This document shows, one piece after another, positions 23,509-32,922 of a DNA stretch of 38,251 nucleotides. Position numbers and translations under genes: made by a program. The notes beneath the pieces are model-generated. The model was not told the DNA's origin, searched no databases, and worked only from the letters and a program-made list of their open reading frames with translations. Each line of letters begins with the position of its first letter. Position 1 is the first letter of the stretch. The stretch is from a virus: positions 1-38,251 of the IMG/VR virus record IMGVR_UViG_3300022562_000160; one strand, 5' to 3'.

Positions 23509-26037
23509 CTACCTCAATCTGAGCTGCTTTCCATCGCCAGACGTCTCGACCACGTTACCAATCATCGCCAGTGCGTTTTCAAAGGCGTCCTGCTCGTGCT
23601 TGGCGCACTCCTTTTGAATCTCCTGATAGAACTTGGTTCGCTTAATTTGGCCTTTGATGGTCGCCTTATACCGCCAGCCAGCCATGCTATCCTTGCGGTC
23701 AACCTTAAGTCGTTTCAGTACCCATTCCTTAACTGCCTCCAGCTTCTCCTCCATAGTGTTGCCTGTGCTGCCCTCGTTCACTTTCAGGTTGCTGACCAGG
23801 TGCCCTATACTTTGCAGCGTCAACAGCAGCGCATAGCGCACGTAATCGCGCTCAATGACGGCCTTGCCATTGACGATATTGCCCAGCGCCATAATTGACG
23901 ACAGCGACAGGACGCGCTCCAGCAGTCGCGCATAGATAGCCCCTACCCTGGCATGGTTCCGGTATTCGTATTGGTCATAATGGCGAGCAATGGCGCGCAG
24001 GTCGTCTAGGGCTTCGGGCGTTGGCTGGCATCCATACGATGCGCCGTTGAACTCCAAGTGCGTGACGTCCTCGGCCAGTTGGCATATCAGGCCGACCTGA
24101 GCCTTGAGGTATTCAAGCTGCGGGTCTTTGCCGTTGGTGCGCGTTGGTGTGTCTAGGTCTATAAGGCTCTCGCTACGCTCTACACCACAGTCGCAAATCA
24201 GGGCGCGACCAAGGAAGCCTGACTCGATGCTATCCTCGTCCACGATGGCGGCCAGCTTCTGCGGCGTGGAGTAGGCCAGCAGATGCAGCGCTGGGTTACG
24301 CACTCCGGTTTGCGCGGTATGAATGCGTTTATCCATTTCCACCAGCTTGCGCTTAAGGTGTTCGATGTCCATTTCGATGGCTTTAATTTTGCCTCCGTCA
24401 AGGTCTGGGTTGGTTTCTTTCAGTGAGTCCTCTTTGGCCTGCAGCTTCTTCTCTATCCGCGCCTTGGAGTTTTCGAGCTGCTCAAGGAACTCGTCACGGT
24501 GAAGCTGTGACAGCTTGTAGCAGCTGGTGGTCGCTAGCTCCATCAGCGTTGCCACTACGTTGGTCATGTGCTTGTTTTGGCCGCCGCCAGCAGCAAGGAT
24601 TTTTTGCGCCTCGTCCACCACATAGAAGCAGTGCCCGTTGTCATAGATGGCAGACCGGATAACGTCCTTATCTGAGCGAATGTCGCCGTAAACCGTTTTA
24701 TTGTTGGCATCAAGCAGCTCTTTGACCACGCGCTGCGGCCACTCCTTGCCACCGGCAGACACGCCAAGCGTGAGCGTAATCAGCGACAGCTTGACGTTTT
24801 TGAAGCCAGACAACCCAGCACCAGCCATGGCCATACATTGCAGCGCCATGGAAGCGTAAGCGCCGCCGGTGAGCATGCGGGTTGCGCCAGCTTTGATGTA
24901 ATCCACGATTTCGCCAGCCAGACCGGGCGGCGAATCAATGTCGTAATCATCCAGATTCAGCGGCAGGCCTTTCTTTGGTGGCTTTGGTGGCTCTGGCTTA
25001 GATGGCTCTGGCTTGGGTGGCTCTAGCGGTTTGGCATCCTTACGAATAGCATCTCGCATAGCCTGCTTGCATGGCTCCTCGCCGTGTTTCTGGCGGTAGT
25101 CGTCCCAGTCGCCAAGCTCAGGCGGCAGCGCGACAATGCCGCTTACTGGTACTGAGGCTTCTTCGGCGTACTTCTGGCCTGCGCCGTGCTCGTCATGGTC
25201 AGCAAAGAAAACAATCTTGCTGTCAGGATGCTGCTCGCGCACATACTTGGCCACAGCCGCGAGGTTGCCGGTCTGAAATGCGCAATACGTCATCGCGCCG
25301 GTTAGTTTGTTGACAGTTACGCCAGTGGCATAGCCCTCTACAATGGCAATCATATTGGTCTTGCCATCTATGGGGTGATAAACCCCCTGCATATCGCCAC
25401 CAGTGATTGGCCGCTTCTCGCCATCGACCTTTATTTTTTGCATGTTGATTAGCTCTCCATTTTTATAAGCAGGGACTAAGAGTAGCTCCCCAATCTCGAT
25501 AAAGCCATCACGCGCCGCCATGCGAACACCGTTTACCAGCCAGTCACCTAACAAGCCCTTCTTGTCCATGTATGGGTGAGCCTGCCTGATTGCCGCCGCA
25601 AGCATTGCCGCTGCACCTTTCTTTGCCTGCTCAGTGTTCTTCTGGCGTACATCCGGCGTAAACGTCCGGCGCACTGGCGTAGTCGGCGCATCGTTTACCA
25701 ATTCCTTTGCGGTATCCAGCGTTGACTTTCCGATGTACAGCGACAGCAGCTTGAGGCCACCAGCCGACCCGCAGTGATTACAGAACCAGGTGCCGCGCCC
25801 GTCCTTGTCGTCAAACCGGAATCTGTCCTTGCCGCCACACAGCGGGCATGGGCCATGATTGCGACCTGATGGCAACTGACACCCATAGCCATGCAATATT
25901 TCACGCCAACGACCTTGGCAATCAACCAGTGCGCGGTCGATAGGTGACTCCGTGCTGGCGTAAACCGGCGTCAGTTCGCAGTCGCAAAAAGAAGCGGCAC
26001 TGTGGCCGCAACTTAGAATTAGGGGGAATTTCATCAT
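23509..26037 (-). CDS. Primase-helicase (zinc finger, Toprim, RecA-like ATPase)
   Basis: An 842-residue replication protein. Zinc-binding module C64-x2-C67 ... C86-x2-C89 as in P4/T7 primases; Toprim motifs EGYATG (234-239) and FADHDEHGAG (279-288); Pro/Lys-rich linker at about 336-358; then an ATPase domain in DUF3987 style with a Walker A variant GVSAGGKE (425-432) and Walker B VVDEA (473-477). A charged coiled coil follows near 535-580, and a C-terminal domain (762-842) is repeated in two downstream genes. It should prime and unwind at the phage origin. ATGA-coupled to the small gene upstream. Confidence 0.9.
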   Translation of the reverse strand: MMKFPLILSCGHSAASFCDCELTPVYASTESPIDRALVDCQGRWREILHGYGCQLPSGRNHGPCPLCGGKDRFRFDDKDGRGTWFCNHCGSAGGLKLLSLYIGKSTLDTAKELVNDAPTTPVRRTFTPDVRQKNTEQAKKGAAAMLAAAIRQAHPYMDKKGLLGDWLVNGVRMAARDGFIEIGELLLVPAYKNGELINMQKIKVDGEKRPITGGDMQGVYHPIDGKTNMIAIVEGYATGVTVNKLTGAMTYCAFQTGNLAAVAKYVREQHPDSKIVFFADHDEHGAGQKYAEEASVPVSGIVALPPELGDWDDYRQKHGEEPCKQAMRDAIRKDAKPLEPPKPEPSKPEPPKPPKKGLPLNLDDYDIDSPPGLAGEIVDYIKAGATRMLTGGAYASMALQCMAMAGAGLSGFKNVKLSLITLTLGVSAGGKEWPQRVVKELLDANNKTVYGDIRSDKDVIRSAIYDNGHCFYVVDEAQKILAAGGGQNKHMTNVVATLMELATTSCYKLSQLHRDEFLEQLENSKARIEKKLQAKEDSLKETNPDLDGGKIKAIEMDIEHLKRKLVEMDKRIHTAQTGVRNPALHLLAYSTPQKLAAIVDEDSIESGFLGRALICDCGVERSESLIDLDTPTRTNGKDPQLEYLKAQVGLICQLAEDVTHLEFNGASYGCQPTPEALDDLRAIARHYDQYEYRNHARVGAIYARLLERVLSLSSIMALGNIVNGKAVIERDYVRYALLLTLQSIGHLVSNLKVNEGSTGNTMEEKLEAVKEWVLKRLKVDRKDSMAGWRYKATIKGQIKRTKFYQEIQKECAKHEQDAFENALAMIGNVVETSGDGKQLRLR

Positions 26038-26204
26038 GAAATCTCGTCAATGCTCACACCAATCTCACGCGCCATCTTTATCAACTCAATCTTATTGCGC
26101 GCCGCTGCTCTCGCCTTCGCTTCTTCGCTGACCTTGATTTCAGCCACCGGAATAAACTTGCGGTTGGCATAGTCGCGTTCTCTTGCTGCTCTGTTGCGGT
26201 ACAT
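26034..26204 (-). CDS. Small basic helical protein ahead of primase
   Basis: A 56-residue ORF linked by TAATG to the upstream gene and by ATGA to primase. Highly charged: MYRNRAARERDYANRKF, then a long Lys/Glu/Ala helix with a C-terminal KMAREIGVSIDEIS resembling half of an HTH. Likely a small DNA-binding or adaptor protein; unassigned. Confidence 0.62.
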   Translation of the reverse strand: MYRNRAARERDYANRKFIPVAEIKVSEEAKARAAARNKIELIKMAREIGVSIDEIS

Positions 26205-26419
26205 TATAACGCCCCCTTAAGCGCATCCAGCGCGTTGTTGATTCGTTCGCACTGCTCATCACTGAGCCGGTGCTTTTGGCCGTAGTCCTTCTCAGACGAC
26301 AGCACTTGCAGCTTAATAGTGGAGATTTGGCTGTCTCTCGACAGTCGCTTGATATTTACGCCAGCCAGCTTTGCGGCCTTTAGGCGCTCGATTGTTCGTT
26401 GTTCTAAAGTAGGTTTCAT
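26204..26419 (-). CDS. Small HTH-type regulator candidate
   Basis: A 71-residue protein from ATG 26419 with GGGGAACCG upstream. LAGVNIKRLSRDSQISTIKLQ forms a plausible helix-turn-helix (RLSRDSQISTIKL). The C-terminus is helical. As the first gene leftward of a divergent promoter it could regulate the two early operons. Tentative. Confidence 0.6.
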   Translation of the reverse strand: MKPTLEQRTIERLKAAKLAGVNIKRLSRDSQISTIKLQVLSSEKDYGQKHRLSDEQCERINNALDALKGAL

Positions 26420-26447
26420 TTCGGTTCCCCTTGGTTCAGTTTCGACA

Positions 26448-26475
26448 AGCATAACAAAACCTGTTGCAAAGTAAA
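26448..26475 (-). promoter_or_regulatory. Leftward early promoter (divergent pair)
   Basis: Minus strand TTTACT (26470-26475), 16-bp spacer, TATGCT (26448-26453), 29 bp before ATG 26419. It overlaps the rightward promoter, so the two compete or share a regulator. Confidence 0.6.
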
Positions 26476-26492
26476 ATATTTTTATTTATGCT
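26464..26492 (+). promoter_or_regulatory. Rightward early promoter (divergent pair)
   Basis: TTGCAA (26464-26469), 17-bp AT-rich spacer, TATGCT (26487-26492), 45 bp before ATG 26537. Same -10 as the other promoters in the genome. Confidence 0.68.
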
Positions 26493-26536
26493 TTGTCTCA
26501 CTCGCCAATATCGGCAATAACAACGGAGCAATAACA

Positions 26537-27097
26537 ATGGCATTTTTTACCCAAGCGCCCAGCGCTGATGAATTGGAATTTGATGGTATCTATGATGGCA
26601 GTCAGAAAGTTATCCCAGAAGGCACAGAGCTTAACGTGCTGGTCTATGGCGGTTTCAATGGCATGGAAGAAGGCAAGGCAACCAACACCTGCTTCGTAAA
26701 TGTGATTGTGACAAGCCCTGGCGAGTTCAAAGGCCAGAAGTACAAGTGGAACGCCAAGATTTACGACACCGACGCCGCCAAGCGTGACCAGGCAATGCGC
26801 AACCTGCAGGTGCTGGATGTGCAAGCCGGCCTACCAATGACCAATGCGCGCTGCGACCTTAACGAGCAGACTATCGAAGAGTTTTGGGCGGGCAAGGCTG
26901 AGGCGCGAGCCAAGTTCGGCACCTATATGACTAACACCGACCTGCAAACCGGCGAGATTCAAGACCCAAGCCGCCCGCAGGAAGAAAAAAACTTCATCCG
27001 CGGCTTTGGCTACCTGCGCGAAAAGATGATTAAGCCAGTGCAGCAGGCGGCGCAGCCAGTGCAGCAGGATGATGGCGGGTGTGAAATAGATTTCTAA
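26537..27097 (+). CDS. DUF669-type single-strand DNA-binding protein
   Basis: A 186-residue protein. The beta-rich core (GTELNVLVYGGFNGMEEGKATNTCFVNVIVTSPGEFKGQKYKWNAKIYD) fits phage DUF669 proteins, which act as ssDNA-binding proteins. A Gln-rich linker leads to an acidic tail DDGGCEIDF ending in Phe, as in SSB proteins that recruit partners. It is the first gene of the rightward replication operon, beside helicase and nuclease genes. Its last 14 bp are repeated 23 bp downstream. Confidence 0.8.
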   Translation: MAFFTQAPSADELEFDGIYDGSQKVIPEGTELNVLVYGGFNGMEEGKATNTCFVNVIVTSPGEFKGQKYKWNAKIYDTDAAKRDQAMRNLQVLDVQAGLPMTNARCDLNEQTIEEFWAGKAEARAKFGTYMTNTDLQTGEIQDPSRPQEEKNFIRGFGYLREKMIKPVQQAAQPVQQDDGGCEIDF

Positions 27098-27120
27098 TAT
27101 CCTTGCAAATAGATTTCTAA
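27084..27120 (+). repeat. 14-bp direct repeat at the 3' end of the DNA-binding gene
   Basis: AAATAGATTTCTAA occurs at 27084-27097 (the coding end with stop) and exactly again at 27107-27120, just before the HNH leader. It suggests a footprint of insertion or repair at the gene end. Confidence 0.7.
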
Positions 27121-27158
27121 GTGGTACCATCATCTTAATAACAGGAGGGTGGTACCAT
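27121..27158 (+). promoter_or_regulatory. Hairpin sequestering the ribosome site and start of the HNH gene
   Basis: Bases 27121-27131 pair with 27148-27158 (11 bp including two G-U) around a 16-nt loop. AGGAGGG (27143-27149) lies in the loop and stem, and the A and U of the start codon are paired. GTGGTACCAT is also a 10-bp direct repeat made of palindromic TGGTACCA. Confidence 0.7.
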
Positions 27159-27639
27159 GAAGAAATGCTTTAAGTGCGGGAAAGAGAAGGATATTTCAGA
27201 GTTTTACAAGCATAAAAAAATGGCTGACGGCCATCTTGGAAAGTGCAAGGATTGCACCAAGCTTGACTCTAAAATTAGGTGCGAAAAGGAGGAGAACAAG
27301 CCGATAATAAGGGAGCAAAAAAGACTGTGGGCAAGATCTGCAAAAGGTAAGTCTACGATGGCTGCATATCGAGCTACTGACAAAGCGAAAGGAATAGTGA
27401 TGGTTGCAAATGCAAAGTACAAGGCTCTATATCCAAAAAGAGTCGCAGCAAAAACGATGGTCAATAACGCAGTTAAGTACGGATTTCTTTCCAAACCATC
27501 ATCCTGCAGCGTTTGCAACAAGTTCAGCAAAATAATTCACGGGCATCACTGCGATTATAGCAAGCCACTTGATGTAATTTGGATGTGCCCATCGTGCCAC
27601 AGCGAATGGCATAGGTTTAACGAGCCAATAAATGGATGA
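27157..27639 (+). CDS. HNH / endonuclease VII-like zinc nuclease (freestanding)
   Basis: A 160-residue protein. N-terminal zinc ribbon CFKCGKEKDISEFYKHK with CKDC follows the familiar KkCskCgkekplseFyk pattern of phage homing nucleases. The C-terminal catalytic part has CSVCN, then IIHGHHCDYSKPLDVIWMCPSCH with the HH pair for metal and catalysis. It is inserted between the DNA-binding protein and helicase genes. Its start is masked by a hairpin, as in some T4 homing genes. Probably a selfish mobile gene. Confidence 0.85.
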   Translation: MKKCFKCGKEKDISEFYKHKKMADGHLGKCKDCTKLDSKIRCEKEENKPIIREQKRLWARSAKGKSTMAAYRATDKAKGIVMVANAKYKALYPKRVAAKTMVNNAVKYGFLSKPSSCSVCNKFSKIIHGHHCDYSKPLDVIWMCPSCHSEWHRFNEPING

Positions 27640-27642
27640 GCA

Positions 27643-29550
27643 ATGATTTACAAACCAAGACCATACCAGCAAGCAGCAATTGACGCAGTAATAGGCCACG
27701 TTAAGCGCAAGACGGGCCCATGCCTGATAGCGGCAGCCACCGGCAGCGGCAAGTCTGTTATCGTGTCTGAGCTTGCGCGATTCTTCGCATCGGTAGCGCC
27801 AAAGAAGCGTGTACTTTGCATTCAGCCATCAAAGGAATTGTGCGACCAGAACCTGGAAAAATACCTTTCCTATGGCTATCCGGCCTCCCTGTTTTGCGCC
27901 AGCGCTGGGTCAAAGTGCCTCCGCCATCAGGTGATTTTCGCCTCACCATTGAGCGCAATTAAGCAAATAGACAAAATAGCGAGGCTTGGAATATCTGCCA
28001 TTATACTGGATGAGGCGCACGGCATAAGTCAAACCATCAAGGATATTGTCTCCGGCATCCGTGATTATTCCGAGCGCGGAATTACCCCAAATAAAAACGT
28101 CCGAGTTGTTGGATTGACGGCCACCCCATACCGCATGGGCACCGGCTATATTTATGCGATGGATGCAACCGGCGATGAGGTGATTCACCACGATGAAGAT
28201 AAGGCAATCAACCCTTACTTTGAGCGACTGGTCTACAACATCACGGCATCAGAGCTGCTTGAGCTTGGGTTTTTAACCCGGCCAGAAGTTGGCGAAACGT
28301 CAATAAGCTATGACACCAGCCACCTTGAGGTTGACAAATTCGGCAACTTCTCAAGCAAGTCAGTATCTGCAGCATTTGAGGGTAACACCAAAACAGAGCG
28401 AATCATCAACAAAGTGCTGCACACCACTGCCGAAACAAACCGTAAAGGGGTGATGATTTTCGCCGCCACAATCAGCCACGCAGAGGAAATAACCAAGTAT
28501 CTGCCAGATGGCCAGTGGGCGCTCATCACTGGCAAGACAAAAAAGAAGGAGCGTGAGCAGCTTATTGGCGACTTCAAGGCTAAGCGCGTACTGTTTCTTG
28601 TTAACGTGGCTGTGCTTTGCACTGGCTTCGACTCAAGCCATGTAGATTATTTGGCGATACTCAGGGCAACCGAGAGCGCCAGCCTGTTTCAGCAGATTGT
28701 TGGCCGCTCACTTAGGCTAGACCCAAATAAGGAGTATGCGCTTATCCATGACTTCGCCGAAAACATCGAGCGCCACGGTCTGCAATCCGACATATTCACG
28801 CCGGAAATTAAGACCCGCAAAGCCGCTGGCGAAGGCGAGGAAATCGAAGTAACTTGTCCTTCATGCAATGCGCGGATGATGAAGAAGCGCCGCAACGACC
28901 CGATGTACACTGGCTTGGAGCATGACGAATTTGGCAATTTCCTGATTGCTGGTACGCGAGAGGTGTTAACCATGCGCGTACTCGACCCATCAGTTAAGGA
29001 TGAATTTGGCGTAATGGGATTTAAAGAAATTCCAGTTCCTGCGCATTACAGCCGCCGCTGCTCGAATCCAGAGGCATATGTTATCGAAGGCCGGTCGGTG
29101 CCATGCGGCCACAGGTTTTCGTTCAAGACTTGCCCGCACTGCTTCGAGGATAACGACATTGCGGCGCGGCACTGCACCAAGTGCAAGGAGCGGCTGGTTG
29201 ACCCTAATCAGAAATTGACCGAAACCGCCAGCACAGCCACGGTGATGGCTGAGGGTGAGACTAGGCAGTTAACATGCCTTGGCGCCGAATACAGCATGCA
29301 CATTAGCGCCAATGGCAACCAGACGCTAAAGGTTATCTACAAAACTGAGATTGGCGCTGTCACCGGCTGGCATAGTCAAAAGCAGCATTGGATATTTAAC
29401 CGATTAGCCCGGGCTAACGGTGCTGAACCAGCGCTTATCCGGTCAATCAATGACTGCGAAGGCTGGGACGCGATACCGGCAGCTGTGAAGGTGAAAAAAT
29501 CCATTCGTGACGGGTTCACGAGGTTTGAGGTGAAGGAGGTTATATTTTGA
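27643..29550 (+). CDS. SF2 DEAH-box helicase with zinc ribbons
   Basis: A 635-residue protein with Q-motif region YKPRPYQQAAID, Walker A ATGSGKS (32-38), DEAH (123-126), GLTATPYR (motif III) and motif VI QIVGRSLRLD. After the two helicase lobes come Cys clusters (CPSC near 405, CPHC, CTKC) forming zinc ribbons, then a C-terminal domain. It resembles UvsW/RadD-type phage helicases that remodel branched DNA. It overlaps the following small gene by TTGA. Confidence 0.9.
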   Translation: MIYKPRPYQQAAIDAVIGHVKRKTGPCLIAAATGSGKSVIVSELARFFASVAPKKRVLCIQPSKELCDQNLEKYLSYGYPASLFCASAGSKCLRHQVIFASPLSAIKQIDKIARLGISAIILDEAHGISQTIKDIVSGIRDYSERGITPNKNVRVVGLTATPYRMGTGYIYAMDATGDEVIHHDEDKAINPYFERLVYNITASELLELGFLTRPEVGETSISYDTSHLEVDKFGNFSSKSVSAAFEGNTKTERIINKVLHTTAETNRKGVMIFAATISHAEEITKYLPDGQWALITGKTKKKEREQLIGDFKAKRVLFLVNVAVLCTGFDSSHVDYLAILRATESASLFQQIVGRSLRLDPNKEYALIHDFAENIERHGLQSDIFTPEIKTRKAAGEGEEIEVTCPSCNARMMKKRRNDPMYTGLEHDEFGNFLIAGTREVLTMRVLDPSVKDEFGVMGFKEIPVPAHYSRRCSNPEAYVIEGRSVPCGHRFSFKTCPHCFEDNDIAARHCTKCKERLVDPNQKLTETASTATVMAEGETRQLTCLGAEYSMHISANGNQTLKVIYKTEIGAVTGWHSQKQHWIFNRLARANGAEPALIRSINDCEGWDAIPAAVKVKKSIRDGFTRFEVKEVIF

Positions 29551-32372: not shown

Positions 32373-32882
32373 TCACCTCAACTCGTAATGATTGCCATCG
32401 TTGAATTTATTTGATTTTGACATATTGTCTGCTGCAGGAAGATACTGAAGGTTTTCTATTACGTGTAAACCACATACCAAAACACCCCTTATTGGAATTA
32501 CATGATCCACATGAAACCCATCTGGCTTTTCATTATAAAACTCTCTTATCAATTCCTTGTCAGCCCATGCTGGCGTAGCCTTCCTTAGCCTTGACCTGTA
32601 TATGCATTTGTCCTTCTTTTTGGTTTTTCTCTTGATTTCACGATTGCACCCATCGCAATATGTGTGACCTTTAGGCTTATCTGCATCGCATACCCTGCAC
32701 TTAGTCAGACCCCTTCTTCTTCTTTGGCTCTCCAGCTCTGAGCTCATGTTTTCATTTCTATGCTCTTTCTTGCACACCTTGCAGAAACTGGAAAGCCACC
32801 CCCTAGCTTTGTTCCTGTAAAAAAAGAACTCACTAGTTTTTGGCTTTTCCTCCCTGCATCTTACGCAAATTTTTGTGTCCAT
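32373..32882 (-). CDS. HNH homing-type endonuclease inserted in the lysis cassette
   Basis: A 169-residue protein. N-terminal zinc ribbon CVRCREEKPKTSEFFFYRN with CKVC, a second Cys cluster (CRVCDADKPKGHTYCDGC), then the catalytic HNH part FHVDHVIPIRGVLVCGLHVIENLQYLPAADNMSKSNK. The last eight residues DGNHYELR nearly repeat the end of the neighbouring endolysin (DGNHYELK). It separates endolysin from holin, which are usually adjacent. Two of the rare GATC sites lie in HNH genes, one here. Confidence 0.88.
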   Translation of the reverse strand: MDTKICVRCREEKPKTSEFFFYRNKARGWLSSFCKVCKKEHRNENMSSELESQRRRRGLTKCRVCDADKPKGHTYCDGCNREIKRKTKKKDKCIYRSRLRKATPAWADKELIREFYNEKPDGFHVDHVIPIRGVLVCGLHVIENLQYLPAADNMSKSNKFNDGNHYELR

Positions 32883-32908
32883 ATAGCCTCCACTTTATGA
32901 TGGAAACC

Positions 32909-32914
32909 ATTATA
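32909..32914 (-). promoter_or_regulatory. Possible local -10 for the HNH gene
   Basis: A perfect TATAAT on the minus strand 27 bp before the HNH start; no good -35 at proper spacing. TCCAT and ATGGA around the GGAGG ribosome site could form a short 5-bp hairpin that includes the start codon. Confidence 0.3.
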
Positions 32915-32922
32915 AACACATG

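Follow-up and report, generated by a model that had tools for sequence, protein, structure and literature searches.

A predicted start-masking hairpin, conserved in the leaders of a family of HNH nuclease genes inserted behind phage ssb-type genes

How might a nuclease gene that sits inside a phage operon be kept from being expressed with that operon? The question is raised by a viral locus in which an endonuclease gene lies between ssb and a helicase gene and is preceded by two palindromic copies around its ribosome site. "The window" refers below to the whole stretch of DNA that was analyzed, a virus record of 38,251 bases. The features of the locus are as follows.

26537..27097, + strand: ssb gene, PHROG 9002 (E = 5.5e-46), whose protein ends in CEIDF-stop
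27084..27097, + strand: copy 1 of an exact 14-bp direct repeat, AAATAGATTTCTAA, with a spacing of 23; located at the ssb end and possibly part of a homing site
27103..27108, + strand: weak -35-like TTGCAA (4/6), part of the best sigma70-type site of the leader
27107..27120, + strand: copy 2 of AAATAGATTTCTAA, between the -35-like and -10-like boxes; direct repeat, candidate operator
27111..27118, + strand: 5' arm of the outer stem in the predicted fold, partner 27161-27169
27121..27136, + strand: 5' arm of the masking hairpin in the predicted fold (27121-27131 and 27133-27136), missing in the empty-site contig L364
27122..27130, + strand: putative extended -10-like element TGG-TACCAT (hexamer 27125-27130), weak consensus
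27137..27142, + strand: hairpin loop AATAAC, 6 nt, in the predicted fold
27143..27158, + strand: 3' arm in the predicted fold, with the Shine-Dalgarno sequence AGGAGGG (27143-27149) together with the A and T of the ATG
27157..27639, + strand: HNH-type (beta-beta-alpha-metal) endonuclease of 160 aa, free-standing homing-type; PHROG 2340, E = 3e-42
27643..29550, + strand: helicase gene, 3' of the nuclease gene; it directly adjoins ssb in the empty-site sister L364

The nuclease matched the profiles PHROG 2340 (endonuclease) and PHROG 1035 (endonuclease VII), and its metal/zinc ligand set is intact (invariant C4, C7, C30, C33, C117, C120, H130, H131, C144 and H148). The structure model was confident, with weak fold matches to HNH enzymes (VIA-align, best Z 5.8). 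Foldseek with this model gave no match at E ≤ 0.001, a sequence search revealed no meaningful relative of solved structure, and no plasmid relatives were found. We regard the gene as a free-standing HNH homing-type gene that presumably homes.

The nuclease gene is inserted 3' of ssb, behind the SSB-type acidic tip of the ssb product. Readings of the insert as an intron or a translational bypass were set aside, as the two flanking reading frames, ssb and helicase, are unbroken around it. Contig L364 is collinear with the window, with ~87% identity on both flanks (25061-27066 and 27634-29283), so that presence and absence of the nuclease at a single site could be compared between collinear genomes. 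In L364, ssb is followed by a 45-nt gap containing the terminator-like AGCCCCAGCAATGGGGCTTTTCTT and then by the helicase gene, with neither the nuclease gene nor the TGGTACCA hairpin. Because both are missing together, the leader belongs to the insertion. In the Vibrio and Aeromonas phages L006, L007 and L008, the same spot between ssb and helicase is occupied by other inserts (a nuclease-associated-domain protein, an unknown gene and a cytosine methylase), preceded by terminator-like hairpins.

A preliminary description of this DNA had proposed that two palindromic copies flanking AGGAGGG form an 11-bp hairpin that hides the start of the nuclease gene. The copies were confirmed: TGGTACCA, a perfect palindrome, occurs at 27122-27129 and 27150-27157, and AGGAGGG abuts the second copy on its 5' side. 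In the predicted RNA fold, 27121-27131 pair with 27148-27158 in a main stem of 11 pairs as described (9 Watson-Crick and 2 G-U), and after a 1x1 mismatch, 27133-27136 pair with 27143-27146 in four inner pairs. Two details needed amending. The start codon, described as paired, has its A and T paired and its G unpaired, and the ribosome site, described as partly paired, lies with its Shine-Dalgarno sequence entirely inside the stem. The leader fold has a predicted energy of -34.8 kcal/mol over 101 nt (z = -5.8), a stability reached by 0 of 200 shuffles, and the predicted cost of opening the ribosome site, 22.3 kcal/mol, ranks first among the 40 gene starts of the window (median 8.45). The hairpin exceeds chance by all measures applied. 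On RNA initiated upstream, the ribosome site and start codon are thus sequestered by prediction, in agreement with the earlier proposal of a masked start on read-through RNA. No perfect Watson-Crick stem of at least 10 pairs occurs in the window, and the 11-pair stem relies on its two G-U pairs. An Rfam search of the window returned tRNA only, with no match for the leader, and the loci of five relatives gave no meaningful match; the tRNA-like gene (11388-11482, - strand) spans 95 nt and scores above the Rfam gathering score. The only exact pattern match to the hairpin letters elsewhere in viral contigs lies within a glycine-rich coding gene and was rejected as chance.

We propose, with a probability of roughly 0.7, that the hairpin serves a mobile nuclease cassette as its translational lock, bypassed by RNA from an internal promoter. 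RNA reading through from the ssb operon would contain both arms, fold, and hide the Shine-Dalgarno sequence and start codon, so that little or no nuclease would be made from it. A promoter in the leader would start RNA in the 5' arm or the loop, and this short RNA, having no stem, would be translated. The dose of nuclease would thereby be insulated from the host operon of the insertion.

The internal promoter of the window consists of TTGCAA, 16 nt and TGG-TACCAT, with 8 of 12 consensus bases plus the TGn extension. It is the best sigma70-type site of the leader and, under an approximate -10 matrix, outscored 100 of 100 shuffles. A stricter scan of the leader reported no site matching at 9 of 12 positions. 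The predicted RNA start, ~27137, is located inside the hairpin loop; RNA begun there lacks the 5' arm and is predicted to leave the ribosome site free, at an opening cost of 2.6 kcal/mol. A predicted promoter that excludes the 5' arm is strong in relatives, whereas the window has a weak match only, and we consider the internal promoter in this phage plausible yet weak. Among the relatives, predicted internal promoters positioned to free the message are common, in line with the earlier description. A late promoter, and with it the early/late timing suggested there, found no support: by reading, 27084-27160 contains no T4-type late box TATAAATA, and the boxes of the relatives are TATAAT-type and host sigma70-like.

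It is conceivable that the masking is real and that this phage has no functional internal promoter, the nuclease being produced at a very low level from the long transcript. The weak promoter match favors this explanation, and low expression may be tolerable for a homing enzyme. However, the best site surpasses every shuffle with its start in the loop, and a second HNH gene of the window (32373-32882, - strand), assigned to PHROG 1035, another subfamily, has a leader of like layout. Its predicted hairpin (~32874-32920) carries the Shine-Dalgarno sequence GGAGG and the ATG in the 3' arm and, at the corresponding position in the 5' arm, a perfect TATAAT; the predicted opening cost, second highest in the window, falls from 18.5 to 5.0 kcal/mol. 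We consider the absence of a working promoter unlikely, though it deserves weight. No relatives of the second nuclease were found in viral contigs with the patterns used. A third HNH gene (10286-10879, - strand; PHROG 2118) has a terminator-like stem just 5' of its ribosome site, which is unmasked.

To place the leader in its family, 185 distinct homologs of the nuclease were pooled from viral contigs, reference genomes and phage records. In 174 of the 185, the gene directly upstream ends in an SSB-type acidic tip, ..[DE]..[IVL]PF (DDxIPF-like). These upstream genes fall into ~32 sequence clusters and encode PF00436 SSB, T4 gp32-like, Gp2.5-like and other ssDNA-binding proteins, helicase and primase/helicase. 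Leaders (-70 to +20) were compared with 400 other gene starts from the same loci. The median fold z was -2.11 for the homologs and -0.03 for the controls (p = 6.5e-36), with z < -2 in 54% and 6.5%, respectively; the signal survived collapsing of similar leaders into 61 clusters at 75% identity (p = 3e-20). Exact TATAAT, counted with no preselection for the box, is present in 36% of leaders, compared with 1.75% of controls and 2.8% of shuffles. RNA begun at the predicted start lowered the opening cost by a median of 6.2 kcal/mol, versus 0.5 in controls.

The preliminary description had made its reading depend on the presence of the hairpin in homologous insertions. A hairpin does recur in most of the 143 loci with a stop-start gap of at least 30 nt, at the same place and with a different sequence: z < -2 was found in 67% of these loci and a TATAAT-like box in 64%, and about a third of the separated leaders have no unusual stability. 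Among the 31 loci in which the nuclease gene overlaps or abuts the upstream gene, the corresponding values were 13% and 0% (-10 box). The nearest homolog, L009, gains merely 0.9 kcal/mol from its best-scoring start, and in a class represented by L028 the hairpin lies immediately 5' of the Shine-Dalgarno sequence without covering it.

Several further structures were observed among the homologs. In the leaders of L028, L035 and L044, three segments could form an alternative-fold switch, as CATACC can pair with either an upstream GGTAT or a downstream GGTATG in the ORF. In L052, L158, L206, L208 and L272, GUCC..GGAC pairing that reaches into a second hairpin's loop may represent a pseudoknot, for which Rfam gave no match. 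L002, L003, L004 and L011 have a G/C-rich hairpin within nuclease codons ~6-15, followed by T-rich codons; in phage mEp554, a terminator is annotated at such an early-codon hairpin.

Fifty leaders of one class, chosen by a pattern requiring TAT[AG]AT, aligned well and were folded with RNAalifold, which returned an outer stem of 9 pairs and an inner stem of 7 pairs. Paired cells made up 97% of the alignment, compared with 75.6% in shuffles; double changes occurred in 12 of the 16 pairs, and the covariation score was 0.657, against 0.227 for shuffled alignments and at most 0.151 with partners slid. The TATAAT box, which faces the start codon from within the interior loop, is invariant at 5 of 6 positions, a conservation that is partly selected because the class pattern demanded it. 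Arm sequences differ wholly between relatives with pairing retained, including G-U pairs. That the box stays constant while the stems around it exchange letters freely suggests recognition of the box at the DNA level and of the stems at the RNA level. Dozens of related phages retain this fold although its sequence differs, in most cases with a predicted promoter enclosed, so the nuclease is probably expressed from its short internal transcript alone. We conclude that the hairpin is genuine and conserved in the family, and that it very probably locks the translation of a mobile nuclease gene.

Translational coupling, in which ribosomes finishing ssb would melt the hairpin and the nuclease would be made whenever ssb is translated, has some support. 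In the 50-leader class, the outer stem has the upstream stop codon at its foot; in 38% of loci, a ribosome placed at the upstream stop is predicted to release over 4 kcal/mol, and the overlapping loci without a hairpin probably rely on coupling. In the window, however, the stem begins only at 27111-27121, beyond the footprint of a ribosome on the ssb stop, which ends at 27097, and masking the RNA up to stop+11 leaves a predicted cost of 23.0 kcal/mol. Across the separated loci, a ribosome at the upstream stop leaves 10.1 kcal/mol, compared with 5.7 for an internal start and 7.7 for control genes, and coupling does not explain the conserved TATAAT box. We therefore consider coupling an improbable explanation.

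The palindromes might instead serve as an operator in DNA, bound by the nuclease or by some other repressor, with RNA folding incidental. TGGTACCA is indeed perfectly palindromic, I-TevI has an operator over its own promoter, and a tip-like motif recurs in the leaders; but a sequence-specific DNA site has no need of arms that differ entirely between relatives and still pair, G-U pairs included, which makes this account very improbable. A role as intrinsic terminator, or as the 3' end of the message from ssb, is scarcely credible. L364 and the Vibrio and Aeromonas relatives do carry terminator-like hairpins in the gap after ssb, but directly behind the window hairpin lies ATGAAGAAATG, which contains no T run; the terminator scan was empty here on the + strand, and covariation and placement over the start codon favor masking.

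Apart from the lock itself, the leader contains sequence resembling the insertion site. The match of copy 2 of AAATAGATTTCTAA to the window's own tip was reached by 0 of 200 shuffles. Among the homologs, 28% of leaders contain the tip-like motif CCNTTYTRR a second time, 3' of the real tip, versus 0.5% of shuffles and 0.75% of controls; it is found 14-17 nt 5' of the -10 box in one subset of relatives and beside the Shine-Dalgarno sequence in another. An own-tip copy general to all leaders was rejected (mean match 7.62, compared with 7.37 in shuffles). Since the own-tip match is weak overall, the operator idea is confined to a subset and autorepression is a lead only; in some members, possibly including the window, a copy of the insertion-site sequence across the promoter may allow the nuclease to repress itself, by analogy with I-TevI. 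Across the 174 loci with an SSB-type tip (e.g. L186, L015, L180, L350 and L003), the nuclease gene follows unrelated replication proteins that have only the DDxIPF tip in common. The data suggest that the tip-coding DNA is the homing site of PHROG 2340 nucleases. A broader picture can be offered tentatively, at somewhat less than even odds: PHROG 2340 nucleases may be widespread mobile cassettes that home into the DDxIPF-stop tip DNA found in ~30 unrelated families of genes. Each would carry along a self-insulating leader, with a covarying hairpin around a sigma70 -10 box and, in a subset, an autorepressor copy of tip DNA between -35 and -10.

Start regions are sequestered in I-TevI, I-TevII, I-TevIII, segB and Aeh1 mobE (PMC2988022; PMC3014915). 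I-TevI has a promoter yielding RNA without the 5' arm and represses itself via a homing-site-like operator over this promoter (PMC2988022); for mobE, a free-standing HNH gene, an RNA hairpin was shown to lower initiation (PMC3014915). As in I-TevI, I-TevII, I-TevIII and segB, the ribosome site and/or start of the gene described here lies in a stable hairpin on long transcripts, in our case by prediction. The T4 cases are GIY-YIG or HNH nucleases of introns or T4 intergenic sites with phage middle or late promoters, whereas PHROG 2340 genes are free-standing HNH genes behind ssb-type genes, with sigma70-like -10 boxes in their leaders. Aeh1 mobE shares the free-standing HNH gene and leader hairpin, but lies in a T4-like phage, within its ribonucleotide reductase region; we found no report of family-wide covariation for its hairpin. 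Aeromonas phage 25 seg43, with a stable hairpin immediately 5' of an uncovered nuclease ribosome site, resembles the L028/L035 class only, and not the window. T4 segG likewise adjoins, and targets, a phage ssb gene (gene 32), but it is a GIY-YIG nuclease with T4-type promoters, and the promoters of gene 32 lie inside it. A literature search covering few subscription journals found no paper on such control of ssb-linked HNH genes. Fold-back inhibition of the IS10 transposase follows the same logic, in that read-through RNA folds and hides the start and the native transcript lacks the 5' arm; IS10 differs in being a transposon that is also controlled by antisense RNA and Hfq. By prediction, then, the PHROG 2340 system would work like I-TevI, segB and mobE; it also stands apart in how broadly its fold is conserved.

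These results extend hairpin control of homing nucleases beyond the T4 group, and the covariation indicates selection across many phages. A near-invariant promoter box within a freely varying hairpin would be a simple design for insulating a selfish gene from any operon. The link to the SSB tip, a short protein-interaction motif with limited DNA drift, suggests why unrelated replication genes can be invaded.
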